64,000 bases of DNA. Origin: Albidovulum denitrificans. GTDB taxonomy: Bacteria > Pseudomonadota > Alphaproteobacteria > Rhodobacterales > Rhodobacteraceae. The position numbers and the translations under genes are program-made. Positions 3,024 to 12,922 of the stretch are shown piece after piece. The notes under the pieces were generated by a model. It was not told where the DNA came from, did no database searches, and was given only the letters and a program-made list of their open reading frames with translations. The stretch spans positions 434,001-498,000 of the forward strand of contig NZ_PVEP01000002.1 of NCBI RefSeq assembly GCF_002973535.1, read 5' to 3'. Numbering within the stretch: the stretch's first letter is position 1; each line of letters begins with the position of its first letter.

Positions 3024-3045
3024 GGATGGGCAATATTGCCCATCC
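3024..3045. repeat. Dispersed palindrome, copy 1 (GGATGGGCAATATTGCCCATCC)-type
   Basis: A perfect 22-bp palindrome (arm GGATGGGCAAT) begins at the last base of the purB stop codon. The same sequence recurs at 8919-8946 and, with one arm changed, at 9019-9044. It could act as a transcription terminator or as a REP-like element. Confidence 0.85.
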
Positions 3046-8918: not shown

Positions 8919-8946
8919 GTAGGATGGGCAATATTGCCCATCCTAC
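8919..8946. repeat. Dispersed palindrome, copy 2 (perfect 28 bp)
   Basis: GTAGGATGGGCAAT is followed at once by its exact reverse complement. It lies between the AT-rich module and glnA. It is the longest of the three copies in the window. Confidence 0.9.
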
Positions 8947-9018: not shown

Positions 9019-9044
9019 GTAGGATGGGCAATCCTGCCCATCCC
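9019..9044. repeat. Dispersed palindrome, copy 3 (imperfect)
   Basis: GTAGGATGGGCAATCCTGCC and CATCCC repeat the same arms with changes at the centre and right end. It starts four bases after the glnA stop, between that stop and the glnA terminator. Confidence 0.8.
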
Positions 9045-11023: not shown

Positions 11024-12922
11024 ATGACCGAGCTTCTGACAGCCGCCCAGATGCGCGCGATAGAGCAGTCGGCAATTGCCTCGGGCGAGGTGACGGGGCT
11101 GGAGCTGATGGAACGCGCCGGGCGGGGCGTGGTCGAGGCGATCTTTGAGGAATGGCCGGAGCTTAAAGCGGGGTCATTCCGCGCCGTCGTCCTCTGCGGT
11201 CCGGGCAACAACGGCGGCGACGGGTTTGTGGTGGCGCGGCTGTTGAAAGAGTGGGGCTGGGAGGTGGAGGTGTTTCTCTACGGCGACCCCGAAAAGCTGC
11301 CGCCGGATGCGCGGGTGAATTATGAGCGGTGGTTGGGGCTGGGCTGCGAGGTCACTGGACTTAAGTTCACTGATGAACCAGAGACGTGGCGGGCTACCAA
11401 CCTGATGCTGAGATCAGATGTTGTAGTGGATGCGCTTTTCGGAACCGGGCTGTCTCGCAAGCCGCCAGACATCGAACCTTTCTATCACGTTGTTCATTTC
11501 GCGTTTGCTGACCGCTTATGGAAGTATGGTGTTGCGGAACGACCATTCGTCGTCGCGGTGGATGTTCCAACCGGTCTTTGCTCAGATTCCGGCAGGCAAC
11601 TTCTTGCACCTGGGGAATACTGGCTTGGCGAGCCATACGCCGCGCATCTCACCGTCACGTTTCACCAACGAAAGCTGGGGCATGTTCTAGATGGCGGACC
11701 GCACGTCTGCACGAAAGTTGTCTGCATCGACATCGGCCTGAAAGATAGCGCCAGCGGGGCGTCAGCCCCGCTTCGCCCCCGACCCGCCCCCCAGGGCGGG
11801 GGCGAAATCGCCCCCACCCTCGGGCCGGGGGCTACGCTTGGGGGGGCAAAGATGCCGGTCAGATTGACGGACGGGCGCGCGCTCGACGGCCTCGCCAAAC
11901 TGTCCACCCACAAATACACCCACGGCCACGCCCTGATCCTTTCCGGCGGCGCGGGCAAAGGCGGGGCCGCCCGCCTCGCCGCGCGGGGGGCGCTGCGGAT
12001 CGGGGCGGGGCTGGTCACGGTGGGCTGTCCGCCCGAGGCGCTGGCGGAGAATGCCGCGCGGCTCGATGCGGTGATGCTGACGCCCATGGCGGATGCCGAT
12101 GCGTTGGGGCGCGTGCTGGAGGACAGGCGGATCAACGCGCTCTGCCTCGGGCCGGGGCTGGGGACCGGGGCGCGGGAGGTGGCGCTGGTGGCCTGCGCGC
12201 TTGGTGTCCCCGTCCCGGCCCTGAGCCGGGACCTCTGCACCCCCGAAGCGCGCGGCGAAGGCGAAGGCCCCGGATCGGGTCCGGGGCGCGATGGGGGGAT
12301 TGTGGGCGGCGGGGGCAAAACCGACCCCGTCCCGGGCCTGACCCGGGACCTCTCGTCAAACGATAGCGACGGCGCGCAGGGAGGCCCCGGATCGGGTCCG
12401 GGGCGCGGTCACGGTTCCCGCCGCCTCGTCCTCGACGCAGACGCCCTGACGATCCTCTCCCGCGAACCCGACCTCTTCGCCGCGCTCCACGAAAATTGCG
12501 TCCTCACCCCCCATGCCGGGGAGTTCGCCCGCCTTTTCCCCGACATCGCGGAAAAGCTGGCGGAACCCGCCACCAAAGGCCCCGCTTATTCCAAGGTCGA
12601 TGCCACCCGTGAGGCCGCCGCCCGCGCGGGCTGCATCATCCTTTACAAAGGCCCCGACACGGTGATCGCCGACCCCTCGGGCCGCTGCTCCATCAACTCC
12701 GCCCAGTACGATCGCGCCGCGCCATGGCTTGCCACCGCAGGCTCGGGCGACGTTCTCACGGGCTTCATCACCGGCCTTCTCGCCCGTGGTTTCGCGCCCA
12801 TGCAGGCGGCCGAAACCGCCGCCTGGCTCCATGTCGAATGCGCGTTGACCTTCGGCCCCGGCCTGATCGCCGAAGACCTGCCGGATCAGCTTCCGGCCGT
12901 CTTCCGCGACCTCGGCCTCTGA
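11024..12922 (+). CDS. nnrD/nnrE: Bifunctional NAD(P)HX epimerase / ADP-dependent NAD(P)HX dehydratase
   Basis: The 632-residue protein repairs hydrated NAD(P)H. The N-terminal half is the YjeF_N epimerase (AAQMRAIEQ, then VVLCGPGNNGGDGFVVARLL near residue 60). The C-terminal half is the ribokinase-like dehydratase (SGGAGKGGAARLAARGALR, LTPHAGEFARLFP, and the ATP-site ATAGSGDVLTGFITGLLARG). It is longer than the family norm because three GC-rich palindromic insertions (11753-11808, 12212-12287, 12329-12404) are translated in frame. The stretch around 11340-11720 has more A+T and different codon choice from the flanks. The ATG at 11024 gives the usual N-terminus. Confidence 0.93.
   Translation: MTELLTAAQMRAIEQSAIASGEVTGLELMERAGRGVVEAIFEEWPELKAGSFRAVVLCGPGNNGGDGFVVARLLKEWGWEVEVFLYGDPEKLPPDARVNYERWLGLGCEVTGLKFTDEPETWRATNLMLRSDVVVDALFGTGLSRKPPDIEPFYHVVHFAFADRLWKYGVAERPFVVAVDVPTGLCSDSGRQLLAPGEYWLGEPYAAHLTVTFHQRKLGHVLDGGPHVCTKVVCIDIGLKDSASGASAPLRPRPAPQGGGEIAPTLGPGATLGGAKMPVRLTDGRALDGLAKLSTHKYTHGHALILSGGAGKGGAARLAARGALRIGAGLVTVGCPPEALAENAARLDAVMLTPMADADALGRVLEDRRINALCLGPGLGTGAREVALVACALGVPVPALSRDLCTPEARGEGEGPGSGPGRDGGIVGGGGKTDPVPGLTRDLSSNDSDGAQGGPGSGPGRGHGSRRLVLDADALTILSREPDLFAALHENCVLTPHAGEFARLFPDIAEKLAEPATKGPAYSKVDATREAAARAGCIILYKGPDTVIADPSGRCSINSAQYDRAAPWLATAGSGDVLTGFITGLLARGFAPMQAAETAAWLHVECALTFGPGLIAEDLPDQLPAVFRDLGL
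11753..11808. repeat. Paired hairpin insertion in the nnrE-nnrD linker
   Basis: Two adjacent palindromes lie in frame: AGCGGGGC-GTCA-GCCCCGCT (11753-11772), then a long arm TCGCCCCC...CCGCCC matched by GGGCGG...GGGGCGA (to 11808). They encode Ala/Pro/Gly-rich filler in the linker between the two enzyme domains. Confidence 0.75.
12212..12287. repeat. In-frame paired-palindrome element, copy 1
   Basis: The unit has palindrome a (GTCCCGGC-CCTGA-GCCGGGAC type, 12212-12232), a variable 33-base middle, and palindrome b (GGCCCCGGATCGGGTCCGGGGC type, from 12266). Copy 2 starts exactly 117 bases later with the same 54-base spacing between its palindromes. Both are translated within nnrD. Confidence 0.85.
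12329..12404. repeat. In-frame paired-palindrome element, copy 2
   Basis: Same layout as copy 1: palindrome a (GTCCCGGG / CCCGGGAC, 12329-12349), an unrelated 33-base middle, and palindrome b from 12383. The 117-base period equals 39 codons, so the reading frame is kept. Confidence 0.85.

Follow-up and report, generated by a model that had tools for sequence, protein, structure and literature searches.

Paired palindromic repeats within the NnrD half of nnr in Albidovulum denitrificans, probable in-frame survivors at a recurrently occupied loop

The window that we analysed, a 64,000-nt stretch of a 4.1-Mb genome (G000; other genomes carry G-numbers and individual loci L-numbers), contains the gene nnr (11024..12922, + strand), which encodes a housekeeping repair enzyme, the NAD(P)H-hydrate epimerase NnrE fused to the ADP-dependent NAD(P)H-hydrate dehydratase NnrD. 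Profile searches placed both halves, YjeF_N/NnrE and Carb_kinase/NnrD, above the domain-family cut-offs (Pfam PF03853 and PF01256; TIGR00197 and TIGR00196), and the product gave a fold match to 2ax3. Two 76-nt CCCGG paired-palindrome elements lie within the gene, unit 1 at 12212..12287 and unit 2 at 12329..12404 (both +). Each has a 21-nt palindrome a, found by hairpin search (12212..12232 and 12329..12349, +), and a 21-nt palindrome b that is an inverted relative of a (12267..12287 and 12384..12404, − strand). Both units and the surrounding stretch at 12204-12412 are in the nnr reading frame and are read through without a break. A preliminary description had reported two such in-frame units translated inside an enzyme domain; the units and their start-to-start distance of 117 nt (39 codons) were borne out, and the reading frame, open through the NnrD part of nnr, indicates that they would indeed be translated there. 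Its values for the spacing (54 nt) and the middle (33 nt) were each one short: the start of a lies 55 nt from the start of b, and the middle is 34 nt long.

The a palindromes of the two units differ at two positions, which are hairpin partners (C..G in unit 1, G..C in unit 2); because these positions pair with each other, both palindromes are still perfect. Altogether, 12204-12412 holds four perfect hairpins (arms of 8 bp, loops of at most 5 nt), a number reached by none of 2000 dinucleotide shuffles (mean 0.07, largest 3), which rules out chance palindromes. A known RNA family at the insert was considered and rejected, as Rfam at gathering thresholds gave only tRNA within the window. Nor did we find a plasmid copy of nnr: the single match, on a Paracoccus replicon, covered 10% of the gene.

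Two other parts of nnr drew our attention. The NnrE-NnrD linker (11745..11893, +) holds a further palindromic stretch with a perfect 8-bp-arm hairpin at 11753; its translated residues, approximately 243-275, match other places in G000 and in related genomes, and this palindrome-rich stretch is perhaps a further repeat within nnr. Upstream of it, NnrE residues of approximately 106-240 (window 11339-11743) have a within-genus mean pairwise identity of 0.41, compared with 0.92 for residues 1-105 and 0.90 for residues 467-632. The GC content of the same segment is 0.54-0.62 against 0.66-0.76, lower in 13 of 13 genomes compared, and it looks like a fast-evolving or exchanged piece of a conserved enzyme.

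Alignment with relatives delimited an extra NnrD loop segment (12203..12412, +; ends approximate) of approximately 69 residues beyond the empty-site loop. We modelled the nnr product with AlphaFold2 from a 45-sequence alignment, and obtained a mean pLDDT of 78 and a pTM of 0.55, with 296 of 632 residues at 90 or above. The pLDDT fell below 50 in two stretches, residues 401-463, within the extra loop segment, and residues 243-290, at the linker; the insert blocks scored 33-43 and most NnrD core blocks 80-98. The model scored 0.78-0.79 against the single-domain NnrD-like structures 1kyh and 2r3b and 0.52 (TM by target) against 2ax3 (TM0922), a two-domain comparison in which the orientation is uncertain. 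The insert, which connects helix 383-393 to strand 467-470, is thus predicted by the model to be disordered beside an intact NnrD fold. In ribokinase-like folds, helix-to-strand loops generally lie on the side away from the active site.

The palindromes are not confined to nnr. A joint a/b palindrome pattern gave 102 matches in G000 (48 forward, 54 reverse), compared with 3 for the reversed control. For the pairing count we took 88 of 100 listed matches, dropping 12 that were not family-like, and found 34 inverted pairs, most of them (27) spaced by 41 nt, 5 by 38, 40 or 42 nt and 2 by 55 nt. Both 55-nt cases are in nnr, and the other 32 pairs counted fall at 38-42 nt. The full paired layout with a variable middle was present in 19 of 149 same-family genomes (control 0 in each), with 76 copies in the top genome, then 22 and 13, and 2 in G000. 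At a second place in G012 (C49:218557-218632) we found a unit that is likewise 76 nt long with a spacing of 55 nt. As the paired layout with a variable middle recurs across genomes, it is normal in the family for similar palindromes to enclose differing middles, an exception being G170, in which the middles are alike. The unit is therefore not unique to nnr, its palindromes being multi-copy in G000 and family-wide. The search for fixed-spacing pairs proposed in the preliminary description succeeded across the family, but within G000 the 55-nt spacing is restricted to nnr.

Other CCCGG copies in open frames of G000 lie in glyS and nrdJ, gene families that were confirmed by domain search; because many open frames in a genome so rich in GC are spurious, only nnr, glyS and nrdJ are named as genic hosts. 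The glyS copy (L065, G000:C1:810070-810114) comprises two GCCCC-type palindromes side by side, and a single GCCCC-type palindrome (L066, G000:C1:1077456-1077476) lies in the gene for the adenosylcobalamin-dependent ribonucleotide reductase. Three CCCGG sites inspected in G012 sit in open frames that look spurious. Taking glyS as one comparison site, we found it filled in 2 of 22 same-genus genomes (G000 and G012, the latter called filled from a continuous alignment with a palindrome inside) and empty in the other 20 aligned. The glyS genes (L186-L205; G000 copy L185) also contain a segment of 17-137 residues between highly conserved stretches, with a mean identity of 0.12 compared with 0.86 upstream (19 genomes, one alignment) and a GC content of 0.48-0.54 compared with 0.65-0.69 (8 genomes checked).

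We then compared the NnrD loop across relatives. In the same-genus set, comprising G000 and 21 relatives, the loop was readable in 20 genomes, L016 showing the right half only. A palindromic insert was present in 12 of the 20. The CCCGG element occurs in G000 and in G012, there with half of a CCCTCCCC element, and the CCCTCCCC sequence occurs in nine loops, with G012 counted under both. G018 has a GTAG-type pair and G014 a fourth hairpin. Outside these 12, G008 has a short palindrome and G021 a non-palindromic insert. Six of the 20 genomes have an empty loop (0-1 extra residue), as do the outgroups, so that comparison with insert-free relatives, one of the checks suggested at the outset, confirms that many NnrD homologues lack these residues. 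For a wider view we added named Rhodobacterales loci, taking the 80 top-ranked of a longer list, and of the 110 loci examined we parsed 104 (L016, L107, L129, L132, L133 and L160 were left out), which gave 100 distinct sequences. Loop labels were assigned by eye from the DNA. By these author labels, in a set that includes the best 80 Rhodobacterales loci, 40 of the 100 distinct sequences carry palindromic inserts of at least three types, CCCGG, CCCTCCCC and a GTAG-tagged CGGGGTTCACCCCG: 15 have CCCTCCCC, 7 a CCCGG pair, 6 a GTAG-type pair, 6 a GTAG-type single, 2 a CCCGG single (L151 and L153, imperfect or weak), 2 CCCGG with CCCTCCCC and 2 the fourth hairpin. Three inserts are non-palindromic (L009, L102 and L147), and 57 loops have none, although the few extra residues in some of these may be remnants. 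The NnrD part beyond the loop measures 163-167 residues in 95 of 104 rows; because the rest of the domain is nearly constant in length, the length variation in this part of the protein sits in one loop.

Placed on a quick and weakly resolved tree, the nine loop labels needed 30 changes compared with a shuffled mean of 41.3. Any CCCGG needed 10 changes, any CCCTCCCC 13 and any GTAG type 9; when the count was limited to strongly supported branches, the CCCGG-pair group still required 3, CCCTCCCC 2 and the GTAG-type pairs 3. These comparisons make it clear that the state of the loop has changed repeatedly; the numbers themselves are approximate, and each change may be a gain or a loss.

Each palindrome type was also counted in its host genomes. 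Ten genomes labelled CCCGG at nnrD have 12-131 CCCGG matches against controls of 1-10 (controls in brackets: G048 17 (1), G049 27 (7), G050 70 (3), G051 87 (1), G052 12 (3), G053 35 (9), G054 101 (10), G055 87 (8), G056 131 (1) and G012 35 (3)). Three empty-loop genomes are at control level, G004 with 7 (6), G007 with 5 (4) and G057 with 1 (2), G007 nonetheless having one exact CCCGG pair. Copy number is not strictly tied to the state of nnrD, since G010, with an empty loop, has 18 (3) and G058, with CCCTCCCC in nnrD, has 64 (7). The GTAG type gave 6-25 matches (control 0) in seven genomes reached through GTAG-type loci, and elsewhere 16 in G008, 10 in G018 and 3 in G000. The exact CCCTCCCC palindrome, searched with up to 2 mismatches in 11 genomes, was found 18 times in G017, 4 in G018, 3 in G013 and 2 each in G002 and G012, and was absent from the other 6; the low counts are partly the nnr copies themselves, with one copy outside nnr in each of G002, G012 and G013. 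Because there are few copies beyond nnr, the multi-copy argument is weak for CCCTCCCC outside G017, and CCCTCCCC may for the most part be a long-standing occupant of nnrD.

Among known repeats, the closest likeness is to the CGTC REPs, described by Di Nocera et al. (2013, PMC3733652; consulted in part) as mainly alphaproteobacterial, mostly inverted dimers with spacers largely of 20-100 bp, stems of 8-9 bp and loops of 4-5, and without a dedicated transposase; some copies are intragenic, for example in DNA repair or tRNA synthetase genes. In the portion of that text seen there is no mention of Rhodobacter, Paracoccus or dehydratase. The window element is similarly a short inverted pair of palindromes, alphaproteobacterial and in some copies intragenic. 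A C precedes nearly all of its palindromes, giving CGTC at one end in the GTCCC type and CGCC in GCCCC copies (checked by eye; four exceptions, L036, L048, L064 and L067). Its 8-bp arms and 5-nt loop also fall within the ranges of CGTC REPs, provided that GTC counts as stem. However, the tag of CGTC REPs is unpaired, whereas here GTC is base-paired with the 3′-terminal GAC of the 21-nt palindrome, and the tail is CTC rather than CCA. CGTC REPs are mainly head-to-head dimers; the 34 inverted pairs among 88 matches have their CGTC ends outward, an orientation that may or may not correspond to head-to-head. Because GTC is paired and the CGTC ends face outward, we call the element CGTC-REP-like and not a member: judged by its sequence, it resembles REP dimers and stands close to, but not strictly among, the CGTC REPs.

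A second comparison is with the Rickettsia palindromic elements (RPEs; Ogata et al. 2000, 2002, via the parts seen of PMC10969869 and PMC3733652), which are likewise palindromic repeats in frame inside unrelated genes; RPE-6 and RPE-4 of R. conorii have been equated with CGTC REPs (PMC3733652). Open frames run through the palindromes in nnr, glyS and nrdJ, consistent with in-frame residence. In contrast to RPEs, which are approximately 150 bp long and encode a conserved peptide (PMC10969869), the unit here is 76 nt long and its left palindrome is used in two frames, and we treat the relation as a likeness. The third loop type is like GTAG-tagged REPs: a CGGGGTTCACCCCG hairpin comes after GTAG, it occurs both singly and in inverted pairs, and a genome holds several to 25 copies. 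Unlike RAYT-linked GTAG REPs, it had no accompanying PF01797 (REP-type tyrosine transposase) in the nine genomes searched whose loop holds it or a short relative of it. A RAYT as the mover of the window element was rejected, as G000 has no PF01797 match at E 1e-3. Across 26 genomes including G000, four gave a match (that of G012 below the cut-off), and 19 further genomes gave two marginal matches just over it, in G050 and G056, both CCCGG-rich, so that a RAYT link to CCCGG may exist in other genomes. Within the window, a palindrome GATGGGCAATATTGCCCATC occurs at 3025-3044, 8923-8942 and 9023-9042, against an expectation of 0; one of these copies has 2 mismatches. GTAG or CTAC adjoins the palindrome, and two copies lie just past the 3′ end of a glutamine-synthetase-like frame; it is perhaps a GTAG-type REP.

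In 20 CCCGG palindromes from nnrD loops, 158 of 160 pairs were intact, a figure inflated by pre-filtering for at least 7 of 8 matching pairs, which dropped the degenerate copies (the left arm in L134, L151 and the first copy in L097). More telling is the kind of change, which keeps the hairpin paired: pair 8-14 is A-T in 10, G-C in 9 and C-G in 1, and pair 2-20 is C-G in 10 and T-A in 9, with one mismatch. Five loci (L001, L007, L097, L100 and L105) share one reading frame through the left CCCGG palindrome, whereas L104, L110 and L113 use another, and this use of two reading frames makes a peptide kept by selection unlikely. The GTCCC-type palindrome is open in 5 of 6 frames and the GCCCC type in 6 of 6; because nearly all palindrome frames are stop-free, in-frame survival is easy.

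We conclude, with a probability of roughly 80%, that the insert consists of two copies of a dispersed, REP-dimer-like repeat that survive in frame at a tolerant NnrD loop, which serves as a recurrent landing site. The last point follows from the other palindrome families that occupy the same loop in relatives. Under this reading, the repeats would be copied or moved by some process and land widely; an insertion of suitable length would be readily translated, most palindrome frames being without stops; and selection would purge out-of-frame or disruptive insertions, so that survivors would collect in the loop between helix 383-393 and strand 467-470. The DNA hairpin would be the conserved thing and the peptide a by-product. 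Insertion would then be the event, tolerance the probable reason for its persistence, and the enzyme would presumably still be active. The mobile or copy-edited structure envisaged in the preliminary description is supported as far as in-frame insertion of a dispersed paired element goes, and middles that differ are the norm in the family; no movement was observed.

A local tandem duplication is a less likely but tenable alternative. Here, a single insertion would have been duplicated at a period of 117 nt, after which the middles drifted apart and correction templated by the hairpins held the palindromes similar. Such a duplication is possible because the 55-nt layout is found only in nnr within G000, and it would account for b palindromes that are identical over 26 nt, for similar flanks and for middles that match at 16 of 34 ungapped positions, shared CTC..G edges included (mononucleotide shuffle mean 9.9, p ~0.02). 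However, variable middles between constant palindromes are the rule in the family, and the middle of unit 2 is closer to that of a unit in the nnrD of L100 (23/34) than to that of unit 1. The loop might also go beyond tolerance and actively attract repeats, in which case a resident palindrome would favour capture or exchange, for example by template switching at hairpins, and REP families would replace one another. The side-by-side and half-replaced palindromes of L100 and L007 suggest replacement at the loop; we consider such attraction rather unlikely.

That the hairpins are kept for an RNA or DNA role in nnr or downstream genes (mRNA stability, translation pausing or gyrase sites) appears improbable. 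The paired changes and the recurrence of several hairpin types at one site would fit such a role, and REPs have been proposed as RNA or DNA elements (in the part seen of PMC3733652), but the paired changes are also present in dispersed CCCGG copies, close relatives have empty loops, and no structure or position within the loop was seen to be common to the types. Chance palindromes in a pre-existing hypervariable loop, where low-complexity sequence rich in GC would come and go, a reading that the 3 non-palindromic inserts among 100 loops and the variable NnrE half and linker might recall, are hardly credible, being largely refuted by the matches of the inserts to multi-copy families dispersed in the same genomes and by hairpins in excess of 2000 shuffles.

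Landing of dispersed repeats at a tolerant loop, as we favour, has a partial precedent in Xanthomonas, in which REPs occur at approximately the same recB site in two species (PMC3733652, seen in part). There, too, a single gene has acquired different REPs at roughly one position; the difference is one of scale, the NnrD loop being occupied in approximately 40 of 100 sequences and by three or more types of palindrome. In the literature searched we found no description of one enzyme loop that is repeatedly occupied by three or more palindrome types, and the titles and abstracts searched describe no nnrD inserts, which is weak evidence of absence as subscription papers lay mostly outside the search. 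REPs and RPEs within genes have been known from isolated examples, whereas here a single loop holds different repeats in approximately 40 of 100 sequences. The NnrD loop thereby offers a natural series (empty, single, paired, double and mixed) in which to study how repeats insert, which frames they use, and how they are tolerated or lost. It also illustrates a way for repeat DNA to extend proteins in free-living bacteria.
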